This document shows positions 23,613 through 51,520 of a DNA stretch of 64,000 bases, piece by piece. The notes beneath the pieces were generated by a model, which was not told the origin of the DNA, did not search any database, and worked only from the letters and a program-made list of their open reading frames with translations. Position 1 is the stretch's first letter, and each line of letters opens with the position of its first letter. Origin of the DNA: Mesotoga prima MesG1.Ag.4.2 (GTDB taxonomy: Bacteria > Thermotogota > Thermotogae > Petrotogales > Kosmotogaceae); the NCBI RefSeq assembly GCF_000147715.2, contig NC_017934.1:1178001-1242000 (forward strand), read 5' to 3'. The position numbers and the translations under genes were made by a program.

Positions 23613-24040
23613 ATACTCTTCATCGCCAATCCTATTGGTTTCAACTCTCTCCTTTCTCTCGTGAGCGCAGCGAACCTCTCCGCAATGCTCTTTCTCAATG
23701 GTCTTTGTTTGCCCTCGAAGCGGAACTGGCCTCGCCGAAGGCAAGACTGGCCAGGCGGAGCCTGATTGGCCTGCGTTAGCAGACTGGCTCTATTTTGCCT
23801 CCTGGCGCGTAAGCGCCAGCATCACTTCCCGACGAAGTCGGCCTCACTTCCCCGGATGTTTCTCCGGGCATCACTTCCTCGCGCCAGCGAGCCTCACTTC
23901 TGCTCTTGCGATACCCGAGACCCGCTGCTGATCTTGCTCCTCTTCTCGCTCTCTCCAATGACGGTTCCTGTTGCTATTCCGAACTCATGGGTTCGTTTCG
24001 TATGGGAACGAATCTATGCTAATATAGTTTCAAAGTGAAA
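23613..24040. repeat. Modular hairpin arrays (ACTGGC and CATCACTTC types)
   Basis: 23723-23790: hairpins CTCGCCGAAGGCAAG, CAGGCGGAGCCTG and CTGCGTTAGCAG joined by ACTGGC or ATTGGC. 23801-23900: hairpins CTGGCGCGTAAGCGCCAG, CCGACGAAGTCGG, CCCGGATGTTTCTCCGGG and CTCGCGCCAGCGAG joined by CATCACTTC or CCTCACTTC. The block from 23621 is duplicated at 26080 with one hairpin exchanged for a different one. No gene. Confidence 0.75.
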
Positions 24041-25221: not shown

Positions 25222-26499
25222 CATTAACTAGTAGTTACCCTGCCGGCTCTCTCTAAGATCCGCTATACGCTTAAAAACAAGGACCCGCTACGCGCTGCAA
25301 CGAAAATAGGGACTGACGATTCTCCTAGCGTCTAGCCCATTTTTCGCGAAGGACCGTGATCCTGACCAGGAACATTGTCAGGATGACTTGAAAGGCTGTC
25401 ATCCCCTAGTTCCCACATGCTGTCATCCCGTAGTGATCCTGTACGGGATCTCACACCCATGAACCGCTATGCTCTTAGAAACAAAAACCTGTTGACCGCT
25501 GTAAGCAAAATGGGGATTGACGAGCTCTAAGCGTCTGTCACATTTTTCGCGAAAAACCGAGATCCTGGCCAGAAGCATGCCAGGATGACTTGATGTGCTT
25601 TCAATTCGTATTAAATGTGCCTAAATCCACCCTCTGCTGTCATCCCGTGATGGGTCTGCACGGGATCTGGTCTTGAAAACGCGGTACGCATAGCGATCCT
25701 GGCCAGGCGGAGCCTGACTGGCTCCCAAATGCTTCTACGGTCTGCCACATTTTTCGCGTAAAATGCAGACATTTCAACCAAGGCCTTTTCGGGCGAACAG
25801 CCGTTCGCCCCTACAAAAGAACCGCATAATCGTCTAACATTGTCATCGCGTAGCATTTCGAATAGGGTACTGACGGGCTCCTGACGTCTGTCCCCGTCTA
25901 TTCCAACTCTTGAGAAAACCCTCTGATCGCTGTGAAGACGACGTTGTCCGTCGGCGGTCCACCGTTCTCCGAAAAGAGCAGACGTCAATGAGGAAAAACT
26001 TGCTCTTTCTTCCAGAGGAAGAATCTGTTCTAGGTTAGTCAAAGTGAGATGAAAGAGATGCATGTGACGGTGTAAATTTCATCGCCAATCCTATTGGTTT
26101 CTTCTCTCTCTCCTTTCTCTCGTGAGCGCAGCGAACCTCTCCGCAATGCTCTTTCTCAATGGTCTTTGTTTGCCCTCGAAGCGGAACTGGCCTGGCCGAA
26201 GGCGAGACTGGCCACCGAAGGTGACTGGCCTGCGTTACCAGACTGGCTCATTTTGCCTCCTGGCGCGTAAGCGCCAGCATCACTTCCCGACGCAGTCGGC
26301 CTCACTTCCCCGGATGTTTCTCCGGGCATCACTTCTTAATTGATCGCCGATGCTCTTCGGCGCCTTGCGTCTTTCAACTTCTAGTCGGAGGAGGGGGAAC
26401 CGTTCAAGCCAGACTTGTTTTAGCTGAATGAAGAACTATCTTATCGGAATGTAAATAATGGAGTCCCTAAAGGTCAGTCCCGAAATGGAACTAAGCTCT
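25222..26499. repeat. Repeat mosaic with second copy of the 21.6/23.6 kb blocks
   Basis: 25570-25920 matches 21570-22000 and 26080-26338 matches 23621-23880. Contains a palindrome variant at 25791-25810, an ACTGGC array at about 26184-26250 whose middle hairpin is CACCGAAGGTG, a CATCACTTC array to 26338, and GGAATGTAAATAATGGAGTC near 26437-26463. No gene. Confidence 0.75.
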
Positions 26500-27096
26500 C
26501 TAATCTTCTATCCACTTGAGAAGCTCTTCGACTAACTTGTATACCGTCGTGCACGAACACGCGCTATCGGGATCATGCCCGAATGTAATATGCTGTTGAT
26601 GGCCTTTCTTCGCATTCTCGATTGCATTTTCTATCATTGCAAAGGTTTTGTCAAAGAGATTGCGATCATTCTTTTCATATTTGCTTCCAAGATGTTTTTC
26701 AAGAATTTCACTATACTTGGCTCTATTTATCTCACGTGTGAAGAATTCGAAATGTAGAATGAACCATATTTCAAAGGCTTGATTTGACCATGCAACGCTT
26801 ACTCCACTATCACGTGCTTCATCTATCGCTGGTCCCAGATCAAAGTTGTCCTTGTCAAATACTGCCCATACCGCTGCAATTGATGAATCGGAATCCTTTA
26901 GCGAAATAGCGTTCTTCACTAGCGCTATTGGCTCGGCTGTATTGCTACCTGTTCCGATCACTTCAACTCGAACCTTGCCCAGTCTACCGATTTTCAATCC
27001 GAAACTCTTGAAATAATTGACCTCTGTTTTGGTTCTTCCGCATACAATAACAATCGTATCTTTCGTCTTTCTAGAGCGCCGTTGCTTTCTTTTCAT
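26500..27096 (-). CDS. rloB: RloB-like protein (AbiLii type)
   Basis: A protein of 198 residues. It starts with a basic segment (MKRKQRRSRKTKDTIVIVCG) followed by RTKTEVNYFKSFG, the E-x-YF pattern of RloB. AVWAVFDKDNFD supplies the DxD acid pair, consistent with a TOPRIM-like fold, and WSNQAFEIWFILHFEFF is the diagnostic RloB segment. It lies 4 bases after the RloA-type ATPase, in the same order as in known rloAB/abiL pairs. Abi-type phage defence is the family's known role; activity here is inferred. Frame intact. Confidence 0.85.
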   Translation of the reverse strand: MKRKQRRSRKTKDTIVIVCGRTKTEVNYFKSFGLKIGRLGKVRVEVIGTGSNTAEPIALVKNAISLKDSDSSIAAVWAVFDKDNFDLGPAIDEARDSGVSVAWSNQAFEIWFILHFEFFTREINRAKYSEILEKHLGSKYEKNDRNLFDKTFAMIENAIENAKKGHQQHITFGHDPDSACSCTTVYKLVEELLKWIED

Positions 27097-27100
27097 CTTT

Positions 27101-28390
27101 CTAGAACCTCATCTTAGGGATACCATCAAATTGACCCAGCAAATACGCCTTCTTAAGATTCAGATCCTTTCTTACATTTGTGAAATCAGTGAGTCTATAG
27201 AGCGAGCTCTCTCCAAGTTCATTTTTGTCAACAAACCAGAACTGGTCTCTACGAACTTTCTTGCTTTCGAGGATCAAAGGGTTGTGAGTGTTGCAGATCA
27301 TTTGAGCGTTCTTAGAATTCTCGCTAATAGAGTTGAACTTGTCGATAAGCGCCTCTACCAAAAGCGGATGCAGCTTTGAGTCAATTTCGTCGATAAGGAT
27401 TACCTTGCCGTGAGTCAATGCATCAACAACCGGACCGAGGATCTTGAAGAACTTCTTCGTGCCCTCAGATTCAAAATCTCGTAGATCACAAAGGATTTTC
27501 GCCTTCATAGACCTATCGGCGTTATACATTTCATGACTGGTGAATACATCATAGCTAAGAAACTTCTTTGAACCATCTCTTCCATCATGCACCTGCGTAA
27601 TATCGATTTCTAAGTCGTTACGCCTTCCAGTTATATCTTTGAAATAGGCCTCCACATCTTCAAATTCTTCACGCCTAATCTCAAGTCCACTTATACCTTG
27701 GTCGGCTTCACGCATGAAATTCACAGTCTTTTCATAGAGTGTCTTGTCTTCGTAGAGCCTGGCTGCAGTGAGAGACGTAGGAAATCTTGACGCATCGATA
27801 ATTATCATAGACAGGAAATAGTCGAAAACAGTTTTCACAAGATCAACAGAGCCAATCTTGTTTATCACTGATAAGAATAAGACGTTAGGATTTGTGAATT
27901 CTACGAACTTCTTCAATTCTCCATATTTCTTAGTGATCACGATATCTTTCTTCGAAGCGGATTCCCTCGAGAAGATCCTTGTTTCTCTTTCATGAGTAAT
28001 GAAAAGCCACTCGCTGTAAATCTTATCCCCTTGAATTTCGAATCCGTATCTGAATTTGCGAGGACCCCCGCTGTACTCTGTAAGAAACTCAATCTCAAAC
28101 TTCGTTGGTCTTTTCTCCGCGCCCTCTTTGAAAGCAAAACGATCTGTCTGAAGGCGATAGCTATCATCAAAGGAGTGAAGAAGGATATCACGCATCTTTG
28201 CTATTCCCTTGAGAAGATTGCTCTTGCCTCCGGCATTCTTTCCGTAAATGAATGAAGACTTCAGTAGACACCATTTACCTGAAACGAAAGTATTGAGTTC
28301 TTGCAATTCCGAGACAGACTCACACTCCATGGAGAAGACGGTTTCATCTAGAAAGGAACGGAAATTCTCAATCGCGAAAGAAACTAACAT
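27101..28390 (-). CDS. rloA: RloA-like AAA ATPase (AbiLi type)
   Basis: A 429-residue ABC/SMC-style ATPase. MLVSFAIENFRSFLDE is the typical start and FIYGKNAGGKSNLLKGI is Walker A (about residues 47-55 of the product). The C-terminal part has KVILIDEIDSKLHP (Walker B with DE) and MICNTHNPLILE (the switch His). The start at 28390 follows GGAGGTGA; an earlier in-frame ATG at 28411 lies before that site. It pairs with the RloB-type gene 4 bases downstream, forming a two-gene defence operon. A perfect inverted repeat lies about 75-95 bases upstream. Confidence 0.87.
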   Translation of the reverse strand: MLVSFAIENFRSFLDETVFSMECESVSELQELNTFVSGKWCLLKSSFIYGKNAGGKSNLLKGIAKMRDILLHSFDDSYRLQTDRFAFKEGAEKRPTKFEIEFLTEYSGGPRKFRYGFEIQGDKIYSEWLFITHERETRIFSRESASKKDIVITKKYGELKKFVEFTNPNVLFLSVINKIGSVDLVKTVFDYFLSMIIIDASRFPTSLTAARLYEDKTLYEKTVNFMREADQGISGLEIRREEFEDVEAYFKDITGRRNDLEIDITQVHDGRDGSKKFLSYDVFTSHEMYNADRSMKAKILCDLRDFESEGTKKFFKILGPVVDALTHGKVILIDEIDSKLHPLLVEALIDKFNSISENSKNAQMICNTHNPLILESKKVRRDQFWFVDKNELGESSLYRLTDFTNVRKDLNLKKAYLLGQFDGIPKMRF

Positions 28391-28462
28391 CCCCTCACCT
28401 CCCCGGTACAAAGCACATAAAGACTATCGACCATTTATGACTGGATAAAAAAGTCAACTCTA

Positions 28463-35867: not shown

Positions 35868-36138
35868 TGAAAGGCAACCAAAAGAGCCCTCGGGTGTCAT
35901 TCGAAAGAACAAGAAGAGAGAGAGAGGGCGAGACATGAGCGGCGGGTCTCGGATTTTGGGTTTACGGTATCGCAAGAACGGAAGTGATGCTGCTGCGCAG
36001 GAAGCCTGTCAGGTCAACCGATTGACTAAGGGACGGATGTGAGAGGGTAGAGGATAGAGGTTTGAAGTTCAAAGTCTTCTTGCCTCTAACCAAGCGATGA
36101 AACAACGTTAGTCATCAGCCGTTTTCCGAAAAGAACAA
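35868..36138. repeat. Short gap with hairpin modules
   Basis: GAAGTGATGCTGCTGCGCAGGAAGC lies at about 35981-36005, one module of the GAAGTGATG hairpin type. The rest, including GTCAACCGATTGACTAAGGGA, is unremarkable. Confidence 0.5.
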
Positions 36139-36719: not shown

Positions 36720-37430
36720 ATCGTTAAGTGAGTAGTCAAAAACCTCAAATCCCGCCACAGAATAAGAAACAATTTTAGAGAGAAGACGCCTTGAGACTGA
36801 GACGAAGCTTCGCTTGGAGAAAAACTATATTCGAGACTTCAAAGAAGCCTCTCAGCTCAAGCGTCATGGGTCCACCGCCCTCCGACAAGAGTTGCAAGAC
36901 GCAAGGCGCCGAAGAGCATCGGCGGTCAGTTTAGAAGTGAGGCTCGCTGGCGCGAGGAAGTGATGCCCGGAGGATTATCCGGGGAAGTGAGGCCGACTGC
37001 GTCGGGAAGTGATGCTGGCGCTTTCGCACCAGGAGGCAAGAATCAGTCAGTCTGCTCACGCAAACCAGTCACCTTCGGTGACCAGTCTTTGCTTCGCAAA
37101 AGCCAGTTCTGGCTACGCAGGAGATGAGATCCCGTGCAAGAGCATCACGGGATGACAGTCTTTACTTTCTTTGCGTCATCCTGACAACGCTCCTGGTCAG
37201 GATTCCTGTCTCCCGCGAAAATAGGGACAGATGCTAGGATCCCGTCAGTCCCTATTTTCGCTTACGGCATTCAGCTTGCAGCGAAAAACGGATCTTTTAC
37301 GCGAGATCCCGTGCAGTAGACACTATGTCATGGCGGTCTAGGTTATTCAGAAGTCGTCACATACTGTCATTCTGACGATGCTCGTGATCAGAATCCTGAA
37401 CTCAGGATCGAAAGAACGTTCCGCTGCAAC
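36720..37430. repeat. Modular hairpin array and repeat mosaic
   Basis: 36895-37035: GAAGTGATG-type modules with stems CTCGC/GCGAG, CCCGGA/TCCGGG, CCGAC/GTCGG and a decayed CTGGCGC stem, after a GACGCAAGGCGCCGAAGAG module. 37040-37122: ACTGGC-type modules in reverse orientation. Then a CCTGAC..GTCAGG hairpin (37178-37203) and GGGACAGATGCTAGGATCCC (37226). No gene. Confidence 0.7.
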
Positions 37431-38290
37431 TCAATGAAAACCCAGTCTATCAGAGGTTTTGAGAAGGTCGCCGATTATCTTCACTGTCTCAACCGCATCG
37501 TTGAACTGAATCCCTTTGGCATAGCTGTTTTCATTTTGATACTTTTCCCAAAGTCTTTTCTGGTACTCAGAGTCAATGAGTTCGTAGACAACGCTTTCGT
37601 AATGAGCTAGTATACTCGATGATCCTCGTCTACGCGCGGTGTTTTCAATTGCTTTCTTTAGTGTGGGGGTGGAGATTTGGTCTTTCTTCAGTCTGAAAAG
37701 AGTGTGGACGTCGTACAAGTCTCTAGGACGAGAACTCAAGACATCCTTCTCAATATGGTCTCGTATTTCTCTGCGAGTATCGTTTCAAGTGTGTATGCTT
37801 TTATGATGATTTTCTCTTTTCCAAAGATTGAGAGATACTGGTAGTCGATTTCTCCGGGAGTTATAACATCTCCAGTTGTTATGTCGATTCTCATTGGAAC
37901 TCTGATTCTGTCGAATCTAGCCTCTAATGAAACACGGAAACTGTTGTATTTGTCTTCTTCGCGGATTGGCACTATTCGCTCCAATTTGAAACTAACCCCG
38001 TCATCAATCGCTGTTTCGATTATTTCGGTCACAACTCTTTTGAGCGAATCTTCATTCATTGCAAGGTTCTTGACTGTGGCATCCATATCGATTGTGGTTC
38101 TCTGCCCAATACCTAGAATAGATGCGATTAGAAGCCCACCTTTCAATATGAAGATCTCTTTGTATGAGGACCTAGCCACTCGCTCAATAAATCTTTCGAA
38201 CATGAACATGTGAAGAATCTCTCCCGCATTCAAGTCTTTCTCCGCGGCGATTTTACGAATCTCGTTTTTCAGCTTTTCCGGGTTTATCAC
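37431..38290 (-). pseudogene. AbiEii-type nucleotidyltransferase toxin, frameshifted
   Basis: Starts at GTG 38290 after GGAGG. It has LKGGLLIASILGIGQRTTID with the D-x-D in TTIDMDATV, then LETILAEKYETILRR, and stops at 37736. The rest continues in another frame as VLSSRPRDLYDVHTLFRLKK to the stop at 37431. Adding one A gives ..TILRRNVLSSRPRDLYD.., exactly the motif III/IV region of the family. The core motifs are intact, but a truncated product of 184 residues lacks motif IV and the C-terminal domain. The upstream AbiEi gene is open and overlaps it by four bases (GTGA). Confidence 0.85.
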
Positions 38291-38883
38291 AGCAGAACCT
38301 CCGTATAAGTATGCAAGAGATCTTCAACTCCCAACACTCGTGAGTATCTAGCTAACTTTGCAATATCTCTTGTACTACCGAAATACGATTTCAAGGCATC
38401 AGTGACGATCTGAATATCAAATCGGTCCTTCTCTTTTAGCAGATCGCAGATGGTCCTTTCGGAATCGTAAGATCTTAAAGTGTTTCCAAAAGGCGATTTA
38501 ACACTGGCCAAACCCAGGTTAAAAAGCGACCGTTTCACGTAATGGAAGACCAGATCACTGCGCTCTTTCGAAAGATGCGTTACGTTTGATCCCTGAGGTA
38601 CAGTAATGTGGTATTTGGATGGTGCCCGGTCTGAGAGACCGAGTAGATAGAGGGATGTTGTATGAGAGAAGACACAGGATTTGCACCTCATCTGGAGTAT
38701 CTTGTACTCATCTATTAATCTTTCTGATAAGACGTACACCCCCCGCGAGACCTTCTCAAGCTGTCCCAACTCAAGAAGCCGTCTTAGCTCTTCCTTTCTA
38801 ATTCCCTCTGCTACGACATCACAGGTTTCAACAAAACCATTGTTTTCGGCAGCGATTTGTTTGATCTTTTCAAACTCATTCAT
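38287..38883 (-). CDS. AbiEi family antitoxin, type IV TA
   Basis: A product of 198 residues. The start at 38883 has GAAGGTGA five bases upstream; the frame continues into the operator, so the earlier ATG at 38922 is rejected. The N-terminal wHTH reads NGFVETCDVVAEGIRKEELR then LGQLEKVSRGVYVL. SHTTSLYLLGLSDRAPSKYH and ITVPQGSN are the characteristic middle section, and YDSERTICDLLKEKDRFD is the conserved ERT-CD segment. It likely represses its own promoter through the perfect inverted repeat just upstream. Antitoxin intact, toxin broken. Confidence 0.87.
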   Translation of the reverse strand: MNEFEKIKQIAAENNGFVETCDVVAEGIRKEELRRLLELGQLEKVSRGVYVLSERLIDEYKILQMRCKSCVFSHTTSLYLLGLSDRAPSKYHITVPQGSNVTHLSKERSDLVFHYVKRSLFNLGLASVKSPFGNTLRSYDSERTICDLLKEKDRFDIQIVTDALKSYFGSTRDIAKLARYSRVLGVEDLLHTYTEVLL

Positions 38884-38896
38884 CGTTTCACCTTCT

Positions 38897-38940
38897 GTAC
38901 TAACGTGCTTTAATAATAACATATTAACGCACGTTAGTAC
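38897..38940. promoter_or_regulatory. Perfect inverted repeat, AbiEi operator
   Basis: GTACTAACGTGC (38897-38908) and GCACGTTAGTAC (38929-38940) are perfect 12-base inverted arms, with centres 32 bp apart, in AT-rich sequence directly upstream of the antitoxin start. The sequence differs from the operator of the other AbiE pair at 19924, so the two systems should not cross-regulate. Confidence 0.78.
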
Positions 38941-43447: not shown

Positions 43448-43469
43448 CTCCTGATAGACACTCACGCAG

Positions 43470-44058
43470 AAGTGAGGCTGGGAAAAGCATCCCAGGAAGT
43501 GATGCCCGGAAGACCATCCGGGGAAGTGATGCCGACTTCGTCGGGAAGTGATCCTGCTTCGCAGGAAGCCTCTCAGGTCAACCGTCATTGGTTCTCCGTC
43601 CTCAGACAAGAATTGCTAGACGCAAGGCGCCGGAGATCATCGGCGATCAATTAAGAAGTGATGCTGCTCCGCAGGAAGTGAGGCCCGGAAGAACGTCCGG
43701 GGAAGTGAGGCTCGCTGTGCGAGGAAGTGATGCTGTCGCTCACGCGCCAGGACGCAAGGCCCGCTTCGCGGGGATGAAAAACCATCTGCGACAAAAGATT
43801 CGACGCAATGCGCCGAAAAGCATCGGCGATCAATTAAGAAGTGAGGCTGGGAAAAGCATCCCAGGAAGTGATGCCCGGAAGAACATCCGGGGAAGTGAGG
43901 CCGACTTCGTCGGGAAGTGATGCTGGCGCTTACACGCCAGGTCGCAATGCCCGCTTCGCGGGGATGAAGAACCAACTGAAATAAGAAATTCGACGCAAGG
44001 CGCCGAAGATCATCGGCGATCAATTAAGAAGTGATGCTGCTCCGCAGGAAGCTGAACT
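43470..44058. repeat. Largest modular hairpin array (GAAGTGATG and GACGCAAGGC types)
   Basis: A chain of modules, each a constant spacer plus a different hairpin: CTGGGA/TCCCAG, CCCGGA/TCCGGG, CCGAC/GTCGG, CTGC/GCAG, CTCGC/GCGAG and CTGGCGC/CGCCAG after GAAGTGATG or GAAGTGAGG; CGCCG/CGGCG and CCCGC/GCGGG after GACGCAAGG. The order CTGGGA, CCCGGA, CCGAC occurs twice (43472-43540 and 43838-43915). CGGCGATCAATTAAGAAGTG joins the two module types three times. No gene; open frames across it are artefacts. Confidence 0.8.
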
Positions 44059-44142
44059 TCAAAATAAGATGACTGCGCGACAGCACTTGAATGGTGGATT
44101 TTCAGATGATATATTATCCTCAGTTCATTTTGAGGAGGATAG

Positions 44143-44223
44143 ATGATGGACATTGAGAATCTTCAAATTTGGAAACTTGTGACAAACGGCGAACTTCCTT
44201 TCAAGATAGAGCCCCTAAGATAA
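44143..44223 (+). pseudogene. Chimeric remnant: four-helix-bundle start joined to a DUF4160 end
   Basis: The 26-codon frame reads MMDIENLQIWKL then VTNGELPFKIEPLR. The first part and the 60 bases before it match the start and promoter of the four-helix-bundle gene at 49959 (MEIERLNIWKL). The second part looks like the C terminus of a DUF4160 protein, which commonly precedes DUF2442, as here (44237). It seems to be the scar of a recombination that removed both gene bodies. Confidence 0.6.
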
Positions 44224-44236
44224 TGGAGGTATTGAC

Positions 44237-45119: not shown

Positions 45120-45900
45120 TTTCGAAGAGCGGTTCTCCGTTTCGACGCTGTACGTACAGCTTTTTTGCTAAGAACTATGAGAATAGGAGAGAGGAAGAGA
45201 CTGGAGGGAAGCAAACTCTTTTCTCGGAGGATGGCGGACCGTTGACGGACAACGTTGTCTTTACAGCGATCAGCGGGTTTTGCTTCTATGCGTATAGCGG
45301 TTTCCAAATGTGAGATCCCGTACAGGACCCCTGAACAGGAACGCTTCAGGGCAGGCTTTACGGGATGACAATGTCAGACGATTATGAGATTCTTTTGTAG
45401 GGGCGAACGGCTGTTCGCCCGTGAGTGGATTTCAGGGCAGGCTAAAGGGATGACAGAAGAGGCGCTCATCAGAGAAGATCCTAGGGGATGACAGTAACGC
45501 ACGATTGCGTAAAACGGGACAGACCATAGCAAAAGTCGCAATGCGCCGAAGATCATCGGCGGACGCAAGGCCGGCAAGTTCATCCCGGGACGCAAGGCTG
45601 GCAAAGATCATCCCAGGACGCAAGGCCCGCTTCGCGGGGAAGAGCCGCTTGGATAAAAAACACTGAAGGCTGTACGCTGGAAAAAGGAGAATATGGCTAA
45701 TTAGAGCGGGTTTTAAACAGAAGACCGCGTTAGGAAGACCGGGTTGATAGAAGCGGGTTATGGTAACCGGGTTTTGAAGAACAATATGCAAAAAGGGGAC
45801 TCAATTTCTCCTGGTCAGGACTCCGGACTTTCTTTCATCTTCGTTTTTTGACTCGAAGTGTACATGTTGAGCTGTAATTGCATTGTAGTTCCTATTCAAT
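45120..45900. repeat. Repeat mosaic with a GACGCAAGGC hairpin array
   Basis: Palindrome variant at 45401-45420. At about 45535-45645: GCGCCGAAGATCATCGGCG, CCGGCAAGTTCATCCCGGG, CTGGCAAAGATCATCCCAG and CCCGCTTCGCGGGG, joined by GACGCAAGG. No gene. Confidence 0.7.
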
Positions 45901-45919
45901 GGGACTAAGGCTTGCTTTG

Positions 45920-45951
45920 TTGTCACAAATACTATATACTCTTTGTGACAA
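45920..45951 (+). promoter_or_regulatory. Perfect inverted repeat over the DUF6088 promoter
   Basis: TTGTCACAAA (45920-45929) and TTTGTGACAA (45942-45951), perfect 10-base arms with a 12-base spacer that contains TATATACT, a good -10 box; TTGCTT at 45912 could be the -35 box. Binding would block RNA polymerase directly, so this is a strong candidate autoregulatory operator. It lies 15 bases before the start codon. Confidence 0.75.
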
Positions 45952-45965
45952 GAGGAGTGAACCTT

Positions 45966-46601
45966 ATGAAAGAAATAAGCACCAGGGAGAAAATATCGAA
46001 TTATATAAAGAGGAATCCAAAATCAAGGATTTACTCTATCTCTGACTTTTCAAGATTTGGTACTTATGATAGTGTTCGAAAAGCTCTATCACGGCTGGAA
46101 ATCGAGGGGAGGTTAATTCGTGTTTCGAGGGGCTTCTATAAATCCCAGGAATTCAACATACTTGTAAATGAGGAAGTCGCTTCAGATCCTGATCAGTTTG
46201 CTAGAGCCTATGCAGAGTCCTACGGCTGGAAAATCGCTCCGCACAAGGAAACAGCTTTGAATATGTTGGGTTTGTCAACTCAGGTACAAAATGTCTTTCA
46301 GTACGTAAGTGACGGCCCATATAGAACTGTATCTCTCAATGACGGACGGAAAATAGAGTTCAGACATAGAACTATTCGCGAAATAAGCAAACTTAGTTAT
46401 AAGGAAGCGGCTCTCCTTGAAGCACTTAAGACTCTGGGCAAGGAGCGGATTTCTCCTGATGTCAGGAGTAGGATCCTTCGAAGATTCAGTAAGAAGGAAC
46501 TAGAAGCTTTAAGAAAGCGAGTTCAGAAGAGCAGGAAATGGATTTATGAGGAAATCTGCAGATTGATTGAAAGGAGCGAGAACAGTGTATCGCATCGCTA
46601 A
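45966..46601 (+). CDS. DUF6088-type antitoxin of an AbiE-like pair
   Basis: The product has 211 residues from ATG 45966 (AAGAGGAG eight bases upstream). The N-terminal winged helix is RIYSISDFSRFGTYDSVRKA then LSRLEIEGRLIRVSRGFYKS; the middle KIAPHKETALNMLGLSTQVQ and SDGPYRTVSLNDGRKIEFRH follow the DUF6088 layout. These proteins pair with AbiEii nucleotidyltransferases and are thought to act as antitoxin and repressor. It overlaps the next gene by 17 bases. Confidence 0.8.
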   Translation: MKEISTREKISNYIKRNPKSRIYSISDFSRFGTYDSVRKALSRLEIEGRLIRVSRGFYKSQEFNILVNEEVASDPDQFARAYAESYGWKIAPHKETALNMLGLSTQVQNVFQYVSDGPYRTVSLNDGRKIEFRHRTIREISKLSYKEAALLEALKTLGKERISPDVRSRILRRFSKKELEALRKRVQKSRKWIYEEICRLIERSENSVSHR

Positions 46602-47577
46602 CGAAACTAGCTCAAACCTGAGAGCCATTTTCGGAAATACTGCAACTAGAAGAGGTATCAGTCCGGCAATTATAGAGAAGGACTTTTGGGTATGTTTCCT
46701 GCTTGAGGTTCTCTTTCATCACAGCAAGTATTCAAAGCATTATGCCTTTAAAGGTGGAACGTCTCTTTCAAAGGTATATAAAGCAATAGAACGTTTTTCT
46801 GAAGATATTAATCTGATAGTTGATTGGAGGCTTCTAGGATATTCGTTAACACAACCATGGGAATCAAGATCTAGAACTAAGCAAGAGAGTTTTAATCAGG
46901 AGGCAGCTTTGAGAACTGAACGGTTCGTCGCTACCGAGTTTGTTCCGAGTCTAGAAGAATCATTGAGTTCGTTCATTAAAGATTTCGATTTGCATGTCGA
47001 TCCGGATGATTCTCAGACCGTTCTCTTTAGATATCCACAGATATTCGCTGACCAGAGCCTACTGCAAGAAATTAGATTGGAGATCGGACCCTTGGCGGCG
47101 TGGTCTCCATCTGGCGATAAACCCATTACTCCATATGCCGCCGAGGAGTTCCCTAAAGCTTTTCGCATGCCGAGTACTCTTGTAAGAACAGTAGAAGCAA
47201 AACGTACATTTTGGGAAAAGGCAACTATCCTCCACCGTGAAGCCAACAGGAAGAATGGAAGGTTACCGCTTAGGTATTCCAGGCACTACTATGATCTTCA
47301 TATGTTGTGCAACACCTCAATAAAACGCGAAGCACTTGAGGACATCGAATTGCTTTATAAGGTTGTGGCATTCAAGGACAAGTTCTTTCATTGTGCATGG
47401 GCAAAATACGAAGAAGCACTCCCCGCAACGTTGCGCCTAGTACCGCCCAACAATGTACTAAAGAAACTGGAAGAAGACTTTGAAAAAATGAAGCCAATGA
47501 TATTTGGTTCGGTCCCTTCTTTTGAACAAATACTTGCCACTCTTCGCGAATTTGAGCAAGAAATGAGAACTCGTTAA
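46585..47577 (+). CDS. AbiEii/AbiGii-type nucleotidyltransferase with a D-to-N change
   Basis: The product has 330 residues from GTG 46585, with AAAGGAGCG upstream. Motif I reads FKGGTSLSKVYKAIERFSED then INLIVDW. In relatives this is SEDIDL, with both Asp binding metal; here the second is Asn (codon AAT, one transition from GAT). Later AKRTFWEKATILHREANRKN and RHYYDLHML match motifs III and IV (K, and YYDL). The rest is complete and the frame open. Loss of one metal ligand would be expected to cripple catalysis, though some transferases tolerate it. Confidence 0.8.
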   Translation: MYRIANETSSNLRAIFGNTATRRGISPAIIEKDFWVCFLLEVLFHHSKYSKHYAFKGGTSLSKVYKAIERFSEDINLIVDWRLLGYSLTQPWESRSRTKQESFNQEAALRTERFVATEFVPSLEESLSSFIKDFDLHVDPDDSQTVLFRYPQIFADQSLLQEIRLEIGPLAAWSPSGDKPITPYAAEEFPKAFRMPSTLVRTVEAKRTFWEKATILHREANRKNGRLPLRYSRHYYDLHMLCNTSIKREALEDIELLYKVVAFKDKFFHCAWAKYEEALPATLRLVPPNNVLKKLEEDFEKMKPMIFGSVPSFEQILATLREFEQEMRTR

Positions 47578-48212: not shown

Positions 48213-48238
48213 GTATGTGATACACTAAGGTTATGAAG

Positions 48239-48826
48239 ATGAATATGAGTTTTTCAGATATTGAAGTTGCTTTGAAGGCTTTGAATTCTCAGTTAAAGAG
48301 AATTGGAAAGAAAGTCGGCCTGGTTGTTTGTGGGGGTACCGCATTGAACGCTCTTGGTTTAGTCCAGAGGACAACTGCTGATATAGATGTAGTTGGTTTC
48401 GCAGAGGAAGTCGAGGATCAGATCGTTGTCAGCAAAGCCGAATTCCCGGATTGGCTTCTAGATTCTGCCGGAAAAGTGGCCAGGGATATGGGCCTTCCCA
48501 AAGACTGGATAAACAACGGGCCGACATCATTAGTTGAACTCGGTTTACCTGAAGGATTTTCAGAACGACTAATCAAGGTTCAAATTGGGAGCTCTCTTTC
48601 TGTCTATTATATTTCTCGAATTGATCAGATTTACTTTAAGTTGTACGCTTCAGCTGACCGCGGCGGGTATCACGTAGATGATCTGATGAAGTTAGAACCA
48701 ACGGAGAAAGAGATTGTAGAGGCAGCAAAATGGACAATGACTCATGATGTCTCGCCGGCTTTTAGAGGAATCATGATTGATCTTTTGCGGAGGCTTGGTT
48801 TTGATGATGCATCCAAAGAGCTTTAG
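48239..48826 (+). CDS. DUF6036-type nucleotidyltransferase
   Basis: The product has about 195 residues. VVCGGTALNALGLVQRTTAD then IDVVG gives the GG..(T)xADxD motif of the minimal nucleotidyltransferase fold, both Asp present. The rest (RIDQIYFKLYASADRGGYHV, DDLMKLEP) resembles the K-D-DL region of AbiEii-like proteins annotated DUF6036. The start is 48239 or 48233 (AAGG upstream fits 48239 better). It is first in an operon with a helix-turn-helix protein overlapping by 23 bases. The gene order, enzyme first, is opposite to the AbiE pairs. Possibly an unnamed TA module. Confidence 0.72.
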   Translation: MNMSFSDIEVALKALNSQLKRIGKKVGLVVCGGTALNALGLVQRTTADIDVVGFAEEVEDQIVVSKAEFPDWLLDSAGKVARDMGLPKDWINNGPTSLVELGLPEGFSERLIKVQIGSSLSVYYISRIDQIYFKLYASADRGGYHVDDLMKLEPTEKEIVEAAKWTMTHDVSPAFRGIMIDLLRRLGFDDASKEL

Positions 48827-49661
48827 GAAATTGATTGTAGATAATGCCGTTGGGATGCTGTGGAGCCAGTGGGTAAATCTTGGTGCATGGTCGAGAGCTG
48901 AGCAAAGGGTGAACTCTTTTAGTGATCCGGAGAGCGCTATTGCCTTTTCCAGTTATTTCTGTAAATACGAAAAGCGTCTAGATAAGATCTCTCTGGACTG
49001 GAGCAAAGTGAACCTCCAATATATTAATCATTCTCGCTTGAAAAGACTTCGGAAGACTGTGACCGATCATATTGAACTACCTGATGATTTTTACGAAGTC
49101 CAAGCTGCCACTACTTCCAGCAAGTATATCACTGAGCCTAATGCAAAAGACATGGCGAACTTGCTTGTTAGACTGAGACTGCTCTTTGGATCTACTACCA
49201 GAGCAGACGTGATATTCCATTTACTTACCAAGGGAAGCGCAAATTCGAATCAAATAGCAACCTATCGCTTTCTCAATCAGAAGGCGGTACTTCTGGAACT
49301 AGAGAAGCTGGCTAAGGCGGGTGTTTTGGTAGAGAGAAGATCATCACGGGAGAGACTGTTTTCCGCTCAAAGACAGTTCGCCAAGTTTTTTGAATTCGAA
49401 ATTCAGCCCATTAGTTCTCCATGGTTTCTTCTTGCTTCGCTACTGATGTTAGAAGGATGTCTCACAGATGAGCTCATTGATGATGAATATCTAGTCTTTT
49501 CAACATTCATGGATAATAAAAGAAAACTTTCTGACTATCTTCAGAAGGCTGGCGAATGCAACTTGACTCTCGAAGGATCAACAGCAGACGAGTTTTATGA
49601 GAATGTCACTGAGTACTACACATGTCTTTGTCCGGTCTGTGAAAGTATTCACGCCCGCTAA
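48804..49661 (+). CDS. Winged-helix protein, partner of the DUF6036 enzyme
   Basis: The product has 285 residues (ATG 48804, with GGAGG upstream). The N-terminal half (MMHPKSFRKLIVDNAVGMLW) is helical and not recognised. A winged helix lies at about residues 125-185: TTRADVIFHLLTKGSANSNQ, IATYRFLNQKAVLLELEKLA, KAGVLVERRSSRERLFSA. The C-terminal end has two Cys pairs (CLCPVCES), a possible metal site. By position it should be the regulator or antitoxin of the preceding nucleotidyltransferase. I do not know this family by name. Confidence 0.68.
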   Translation: MMHPKSFRKLIVDNAVGMLWSQWVNLGAWSRAEQRVNSFSDPESAIAFSSYFCKYEKRLDKISLDWSKVNLQYINHSRLKRLRKTVTDHIELPDDFYEVQAATTSSKYITEPNAKDMANLLVRLRLLFGSTTRADVIFHLLTKGSANSNQIATYRFLNQKAVLLELEKLAKAGVLVERRSSRERLFSAQRQFAKFFEFEIQPISSPWFLLASLLMLEGCLTDELIDDEYLVFSTFMDNKRKLSDYLQKAGECNLTLEGSTADEFYENVTEYYTCLCPVCESIHAR

Positions 49662-49727: not shown

Positions 49728-49868
49728 CAGACGCAAGGCGCCGAAGATCATCGGCGATCAATTAAGAAGTGATGCTGCTCCGCAGGAAGTGAGGCCCGGA
49801 AGACCATCCGGGGAAGTGATGCCGACTTCGTCGGGAAGTGATGCTGGCGCTTTCGCGCCAGGAGGCAA
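49728..49868. repeat. Modular hairpin array
   Basis: GACGCAAGGCGCCGAAGATC then ATCGGCGATCAATTAAGAAG, followed by GAAGTGATG or GAAGTGAGG modules with stems CTGC/GCAG, CCCGGA/TCCGGG, CCGAC/GTCGG and CTGGCGC/GCGCCAG. Same module set and partly same order as 44000-44055 and 43470-43560. Confidence 0.75.
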
Positions 49869-49958: not shown

Positions 49959-50315
49959 ATGGAGATCGAAAGGCTTAATATCTGGAAGCTGGGTGTTGAG
50001 CTTGCAAAGGATGTTTATGTTCTCACAGAGAAATTCCCTAAGAAAGAGCTCTATAGTCTAACCGACCAAATAAGAAGAGCTGCGGTTTCTGTACCCTCTA
50101 ATATCGCAGAAGGGAAAGGTCGTTCATCTGCAAAGGACTTCATTAACTTCCTGAGTGTTGCCAGAGGGTCACTCTATGAATTAATAACCCAGCTCTATAT
50201 TGCGAGGGAGATTGGATACCTGACTCAAGAAGATTTCTCAACTCTTCAAAAGAGAATCGAGGATCTTTCGCATAAGATAGTTGCTATGACGAAGTACCTT
50301 AGGAATAACAAGTGA
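49959..50315 (+). CDS. Four-helix-bundle protein (23S rRNA intervening-sequence family)
   Basis: A product of 118 residues. LNIWKLGVELAKDVYVLTEK, then QIRRAAVSVPSNIAEGKGRS and FINFLSVARGSLYELITQLY are the conserved segments of the S23/IVS family, related to the Avd accessory protein of diversity-generating retroelements. Members occur in 23S rRNA intervening sequences and as free genes; the role of the free form is unknown. GAGGAGG precedes the ATG. A second member is at 56376. Confidence 0.88.
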   Translation: MEIERLNIWKLGVELAKDVYVLTEKFPKKELYSLTDQIRRAAVSVPSNIAEGKGRSSAKDFINFLSVARGSLYELITQLYIAREIGYLTQEDFSTLQKRIEDLSHKIVAMTKYLRNNK

Positions 50316-50620
50316 GCTCGACTTTGTCGGGAAGTGAGGCTGCTGCGCAGGAGGCAGAAAAGAGACAGTCTGCTGACGCAGGCCATTTCCGCTATGCGGG
50401 AGATGAGATCCCGTGCAGGATCATTACGGGATGACAATGTCAGACAATTATGCGATTCTTTTTGTAGGGGCGAACGGCTGTTCGCGCGTGAGTGGATTTC
50501 AGTGCAGGCTAAAGGGATGACAGAAGAGGCGCTCATCAGAATAAGCTTAAGTGATGACATCCCTTCACGTCATCCTGACAATGCTCCTGGTCAGGATCTG
50601 GGTCACAATAGCTTCATCTA
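50316..50620. repeat. Repeat mosaic, no gene
   Basis: A GAAGTGAGGCTGCTGCGCAGG module, an ACTGGC-type remnant CTGCTGACGCAGGCC, GATCCCGTGCAGGATCATTA hairpin, palindrome variant at 50468-50487 and a CCTGAC..GTCAGG hairpin near 50573. Confidence 0.6.
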
Positions 50621-51046: not shown

Positions 51047-51520
51047 GTGCCTGTGAAGAGAAGGACTAGATCCCGTGCAGGAACATCACGGGATGACAGA
51101 AGAAACGTCCATCAGGGCAGGCTTTACGGGATGACTCCCTTTCACGTCATCCTGACAATGCTCTTGGTCAGGATCTGGTCTTTTGGGTTTTACGAAGCAT
51201 GCACGCGAAAAAATGGGACAGACGCTAAGGGCCCGTCAGTCCCTATTTTCGCTTACAGCGCTCAGCGGTTTCTAGGTACGAGATCCCGTACAGGAGCACT
51301 ACGGGATGACAGAAGAGGCGCTCATCAGGGCATTCTGACGAAGCTTCTGGTCAAAATCTTTGTCTATATCGCGAAAAATGGGACAGACGTGAGGAGAATC
51401 GTCAGTCCCTATTTTCGCTTAGTTATTCAGATGAGAAATCTATGGGCTTATTCTGAGGACGGAGGACCGCTGACGGAAAACGTTGTCTTCACAGCGGTCA
51501 GCAGAATTACTTGAGCTGGA
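51047..51520. repeat. Repeat mosaic, no gene
   Basis: GATCCCGTGCAGGAACATCA, CCTGACAATGCTCTTGGTCA, GGGACAGACGCTAAGGGCCC then GTCAGTCCC, GATCCCGTACAGGAGCACTA and GGGACAGACGTGAGGAG. Shows several covarying versions of the same hairpins side by side. Confidence 0.65.

Follow-up and report, generated by a model that had tools for sequence, protein, structure and literature searches.

The locus at 43470–44058 of the window (the whole 64,000-nucleotide stretch of the Mesotoga prima MesG1.Ag.4.2 chromosome analysed here) carries strings of short hairpins on a constant spacer. It raises the question of what kind of element this is, and how the stems come to differ from one hairpin to the next while each stays complementary. 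The first-pass annotation, made from the letters alone, offered three candidates: a structured RNA, a set of recombination targets like attC sites, or a replicating palindromic element family. The last is the best fitting of the three.

Architecture of the arrays

Read 5' to 3' on the tag strand, a unit consists of the 9-nt tag GAAGTGAKG and one short hairpin, and the next tag directly adjoins. A unit starts with GAAGTGATG or GAAGTGAGG and continues as a perfect or near-perfect hairpin, whose base the constant tag directly abuts. Different hairpins are strung head to tail in intergenic gaps at a unit spacing of 20–28 bp, typically two to five units to a string and rarely six to eight. GAAGTGAKG, the spacer first described, is the main linker, but a sister linker, GACGCAAKG, bears the same hairpin types and mixes with it inside single arrays, and a third word array, GCCAGTC, is part of the same mosaics. 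On the opposite strand, GAAGTGAKG reads C(A/C)TCACTTC and GACGCAAKG reads C(A/C)TTGCGTC, so that CTTC or CGTC stands directly against the hairpin, and CCTC at array ends.

The modular organization on a constant linker, as first described, is upheld by the counts. The tag GAAGTGAKG occurs 31 times in the window against 1.5 expected. In the M. prima genome (2,975,953 bp in two contigs; chromosome 2,974,229 bp), the pattern GAAGTGAKG-N(8–30)-GAAGTGA finds 88 intervals against none for the reversed control, and the same pattern finds 136 against none in the relative G009. The arrays are patchy: by hand count, 27 of the 88 intervals lie between 1.20 and 1.27 Mb, and in random stretches of the genome most intergenic DNA is without repeats. 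Beyond 1.93 Mb, all the arrays are on the minus strand, with flanking genes in both directions. Array positions at 1.820–1.840 Mb recur at constant offset at 1.897–1.916 Mb, over about 17 kb, and two parts of this duplicated stretch that were compared are 99.9–100% identical. Draft Mesotoga contigs often terminate in arrays.

Arrays of the window and their neighbours

Arrays are present at all five places first reported, whose coordinates were right to within a few bases. Two of these are on the minus strand. The array at 23802–23900 consists of linker and the hairpin words CTCGC, CCCGG, CCGAC and CTGGCGC. That at 26260–26371 has a GACGCAAGG-CGCCG hairpin and then GAAGTGAKG with CCCGG, CCGAC and CTGGCGC, and is part of a block 98–99% identical to 23645–23877. 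The remainder are on the plus strand. The array at 36898–37032 reads GACGC-CGCCG, CTCGC, CCCGG, CCGAC, CTGGCGC. The 43470–44058 locus resolves into four arrays: CTGGG, CCCGG, CCGAC, CTGC (43469–43564); GACGC-CGCCG, CTGC, CCCGG, CTCGC, a decayed CTGGCGC word, GACGC-CCCGC (43619–43772); GACGC-CGCCG, CTGGG, CCCGG, CCGAC, CTGGCGC, GTCGC-CCCGC (43802–43962); and GACGC-CGCCG, CTGC (43992–44047). The array at 49730–49861 (GACGC-CGCCG, CTGC, CCCGG, CCGAC, CTGGCGC) has an identical counterpart in G009. Absent from the earlier list is a plus-strand array on the sister linker (GTCGCAATG/GACGCAAGG) at 45535–45638, with CGCCG, CCGGC, CTGGC and CCCGC. There are also two single plus-strand units with a CTGC hairpin, one behind GAAGTGATG at 35981–36000 and one behind GAAGTGAGG at 50331–50350. 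A GCCAGTC-type hairpin array, the partner word of the mosaic, adjoins the array at 23802–23900 (23730–23795, minus), and further arrays of this type are found at about 26190–26250 (minus) and about 37055–37115 (plus). Other recurrent intergenic words are GCGAAAAATGGGACAGAC...GTCCCTATTTTCGC, GTAGGGGCGAACGGCTGTTCGCCCG, GAGATCCCGTACAGGA...TACGGGATGACA and tandem CGGGTTANNAGA units, which occur at 25319–25765, at 51150–51420 and in many other gaps.

The window contains a defence island, partly common to G009. Within about 23 kb it has three AbiE-like gene pairs, at 37736–38922, 45912–47577 and 48233–49661, the last of them a weak match, and an AbiL/RloAB pair at 26500–28411. The earlier remark that the arrays lie next to toxin–antitoxin or defence genes holds here, but elsewhere they adjoin ordinary genes and also a 23S rRNA gene, so the association is a property of the island. 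A gene for an S23 (23S rRNA intervening-sequence) protein lies at 49959–50315. At 44140–44225 the same upstream region, ribosome site and initial codons appear again, and the similarity then stops, as though the start of the gene had been reused. The S23 family has 20 matches in G003, several of them on one array-rich contig. As a partner of the arrays this protein was rejected: the gene follows the array at 49730, yet G000 has only five IVP genes, G001 has arrays without IVP, and G007 has two IVP genes without arrays. The arrays were also considered as passengers of an insertion sequence, and this was rejected as well, the 404–412 aa gene found about 640–780 bp downstream of some arrays being a group II intron reverse transcriptase. 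These introns insert into the neighbouring AGTTGCAAGTTG word and not into the array. Introns of about 1.9 kb with a reverse transcriptase/maturase, mutually about 98% identical, are found near arrays at L266:4063-5986 and at L268, L270, L271 and L279.

Hairpin words and stem covariation

Stems do vary between units, as first noted, but not as a continuum. Nearly all units belong to about 15 discrete hairpin words that recur exactly, with nearly fixed stems. The long words (18–19 nt) share a common loop type, GAAGANCATC, and differ in their stems (CCCGG, CTGGG, CGCCG, CACTG, CCGGC, CTGGC, CGGCG and CCGGG). The short words (11–14 nt; CTCGC, CCGAC, CTGCC, CTGC and CCCGC) have loops of 3–4 nt. The word CTGGCGC is nearly always final in its array. 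Variation within a word is largely a matter of the loop. For CCCGG, the commonest, diversity per site is 0.033 in the stem against 0.395 in the loop; the gap is narrower for CTGGG (0.092 against 0.209), and the other words show the same trend.

The coordinated change of both stem arms was confirmed when the hairpins were collected and scored, the stems being far more complementary than chance. Of the GAAGTGA modules of M. prima, 85% have a terminal stem that runs for 4 bp or more without interruption. The share falls to 44% if arms are exchanged among equally long modules, and to 0.9% if the letters are shuffled. The formal test used 64 distinct 18-nt hairpins and 500 shuffles. Paired cells make up 93.5%, against 75.1% in the shuffles and at most 53% with the partner slid; cells changed on both sides number 55 against 14.2; and the covariation score of 0.408 against 0.095 was matched by none of the 500 shuffles. 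Sliding the partner by a single column abolishes the covariation. Each of the three middle pairs occurs in three or four types; the outermost C-G and the innermost A-T, by contrast, are nearly invariant.

Avoidance of identical neighbours

Two identical hairpins are never adjacent. Among 273 adjacent pairs in 129 contiguous runs there are none, against 28.9 expected and a minimum of 16 in 2000 shuffles, although common descent of copies inflates this statistic as it does that of slot order. The effect can be followed with distance. Identical pairs number 0 of 234 at 15–35 bp (24.6 expected), 4 of 175 at 35–60 bp (12.7), 3 of 144 at 60–100 bp (9.3) and 1 of 103 at 100–160 bp (6.9), then 9 of 86 at 160–250 bp (6.8) and 43 of 273 at 250–600 bp (26.9). 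Thus, repeats are rare within about 150 bp, and the avoidance fades past about 160 bp. The partly shared module order of the first description is also seen, as a loose slot order in which the dominant order holds for 86% of co-occurring word pairs against 65% by chance. A single ancestral ordered array, and not instability, could lie behind the slot order and some of the no-repeat rule. The 129 runs comprise 85 distinct strings, however, which indicates that shuffling is frequent and that identical neighbours should often have arisen.

Distribution and change between strains

Five well-covered Mesotoga genomes (G000, G001, G003, G004 and G009) are rich in arrays, and two partial ones also have them. 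G002, G006 and G007 have none, bar one chance match. Within 103 Thermotogota genomes, no arrays occur beyond Mesotoga and its immediate family; six Mesotoga genomes carry the sister linker GACGCAAKG, and one further genus of the family has it once. Outside the family, scanning bacterial genomes and viral contigs for the pattern yielded, among the matches listed, chance single matches only, and the named matches with real arrays were Mesotoga and Kosmotogaceae contigs only.

Orthologous sites differ between strains by loss, replacement or fusion of modules. At the L283 site, M. prima, G009 and G003 have differing arrays, all ending in the same tag and with a similar right flank, and G004, G002 and G007 are array-free. 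At the L262 site, G004 has a single hybrid hairpin made of an arm of one M. prima unit and an arm of the next, which looks like what a deletion between two similar loops would leave, with one unit lost. In the syntenic island around the window, M. prima and G009 differ by block replacements that end at linker/hairpin borders. Since breakpoints at these borders are expected whenever arrays share linkers, they single out no mechanism. Mobility of single units would be seen in a clean insertion flanked by a target-site duplication, and none turned up.

Relation to known repeat systems

The nearest named relatives are the REPs. CGTC-3 REPs are listed for M. prima and K. olearia (Di Nocera et al. 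2013, PMC3733652), within a CGTC-tagged group that has no dedicated transposase. In that description, an unpaired CGTC (or TGTC, CCTC) tag stands at one palindrome end, the stem is 8–9 bp and starts AT, the loop is 4–5 nt and the tail is CCA-like; the elements are mainly head-head pairs, and clusters are rare (PMC3733652). The Mesotoga arrays resemble this group in being short intergenic palindromes with an unpaired end tag, alternative complementary stems and no dedicated transposase. The tag itself is CGTC in the sister-linker subclass, the listed variant CCTC at array ends and CTTC in the majority. However, the Mesotoga stems are 4–7 bp and start with C, the loops are 3–9 nt, the tail is C(A/C)T and the layout is mixed head-to-tail strings. 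Because stem, tail and layout differ, we keep the arrays outside the CGTC-tagged family. The CGTC-1 elements (dRS3) of Neisseria are similar in that their palindromes alternate with members of other repeat families in mosaics between genes that are large and variable (PMC3733652), but they have another tag, other stems and another layout, a separation drawn from their description.

With the GTAG REPs and BIMEs that come with RAYT (TnpA-REP) transposases, the arrays share the intergenic mosaic and the stringing of distinct palindromes behind a constant short tag. They differ in that orientation does not alternate and that the M. prima genome has no RAYT, and the GTAG tag is absent from the commonest flanks of all the hairpin words. 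In the broad sense of a BIME-like mosaic, intergenic strings of different palindromes in many dispersed copies, the arrays belong. The small dispersed repeats of cyanobacteria, reportedly described by Elhai et al. in 2008, are said to be very short hairpin repeats that seem mobile, and the Mesotoga units are like them in being very short hairpin repeats; to our knowledge, the cyanobacterial repeats are not strung on a constant linker, and we liken the two by description only.

A genome-wide REP count for M. prima is given by RepRanger (PMC12306157), and the parts of that source available to us hold no description of these arrays. More broadly, the literature searched contains no description of head-to-tail, linker-tagged arrays with swapped hairpins. 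The first impression that no named repeat class has this form is therefore right for the layout, but REP/BIME mosaics are a named kind and CGTC-3 REPs were already listed for this species. Judged by their sequence, the arrays appear to be a linker-tagged, head-to-tail variant of REP/BIME mosaics and not a new category.

Alternative explanations

One alternative is that the units are actively mobile as single-stranded palindromes, with a putative nuclease or transposase that reads the tag by the hairpin base, moves the units and accepts any stem. The position of the tag would suit such an enzyme, as would the free middle pairs between a nearly invariant outer C-G and inner A-T. The arrays also lie in the presumed leading-strand orientation at 24 of 32 loci (two-sided p 0.007; 0.035 without the island), as is expected where elements exploit single-stranded DNA at forks, and the bias is suggestive of such use, although the replication origin behind it is inferred from dnaA position and coding bias. 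A search for a co-occurring transposase was proposed at the outset. The M. prima genome has no Y1/RAYT-type transposase (PF01797), and Y1 presence in the relatives does not track the arrays, G001 having arrays without the enzyme and G006 and G007 the enzyme without arrays; nor are the relatives' Y1 genes systematically flanked by arrays. We rejected a RAYT/Y1 transposase as the driver, and consider active mobility of this kind unlikely. We would give as little weight as to the RNA reading below to the arrays being the substrate of an undescribed exchange system for single-stranded DNA, one that recognises tag and hairpin base, tolerates any stem, swaps hairpins between loci and avoids identical neighbours.

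A structured RNA or mRNA element, in which transcribed hairpins serve as protein sites, stabilisers or terminators, would account for the compensatory stem changes and for stems that are better kept than loops, and one array does fold as four clean hairpins on the CACTTC strand. But Rfam gave no match for the arrays, and by hand tally their orientation is unbiased relative to flanking genes (upstream 22 same and 16 opposite; downstream 20 and 17). Folding z-scores are just −0.7 to −2.7. On either strand, the intended hairpins fold no better with real than with scrambled linkers, and since the strand asymmetry of folding persists when the linkers are scrambled, it is compositional and no sign of RNA. 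An apparent RNA-strand signal in tag-strand mismatches (36 A.C against 9 G.T by copies) was discarded, as it shrinks to about 20 against 14 by distinct events (hand count). We therefore regard an RNA role as rather improbable.

Coordinated arm change needs no selection if the arms are kept complementary by palindrome-templated mutation (snap-back copying), as a neutral by-product with neither function nor mobility, and stem intermediates with a single mismatch do exist. This leaves unexplained why about 15 words recur exactly at dispersed sites, why there is a slot order and why the outer C-G pair is nearly invariant, and we think it quite improbable. Recombination targets like integron attC sites would likewise be folded variable-stem sites with constant flanks, but no attC consensus core is seen, the directly adjoining units leave no room for gene cassettes and identical words recur at many loci, which makes this reading extremely improbable.

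Origin of the mixed arrays

We consider it probable that these are REP/BIME-type mosaic palindromes with a new layout, which spread in blocks, are reshuffled at their linkers and are unstable where identical units become neighbours. The arrays would spread within larger intergenic mosaics as composite blocks, and the constant linkers would be where recombination or template slippage reshuffles them. Two identical adjacent palindromes would amount to one long interrupted palindrome plus a direct repeat, and such a pair would be unstable and lost. Only strings of mutually non-pairing hairpins would then persist. A loss of identical neighbours would account for stems that vary from unit to unit and yet each remain complementary; we infer how the units spread and why their stems vary, and most likely it is such a loss that leaves only mixed arrays. 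The leading-strand orientation is not predicted by passive reshuffling alone and argues against that as the whole account. As no REP-type transposase is left in the M. prima genome, the units there are probably remnants, or reliant on another enzyme acting in trans.

Mixed dimers prevail in most REP families, with no obvious explanation (Di Nocera et al., PMC3733652). In the Mesotoga arrays, the linker and loop are constant, the stems vary and the avoidance is measurable by distance, so why REP-type repeats come mixed and not identical is now a directly testable question. For Mesotoga itself, the arrays are a genus-specific marker.
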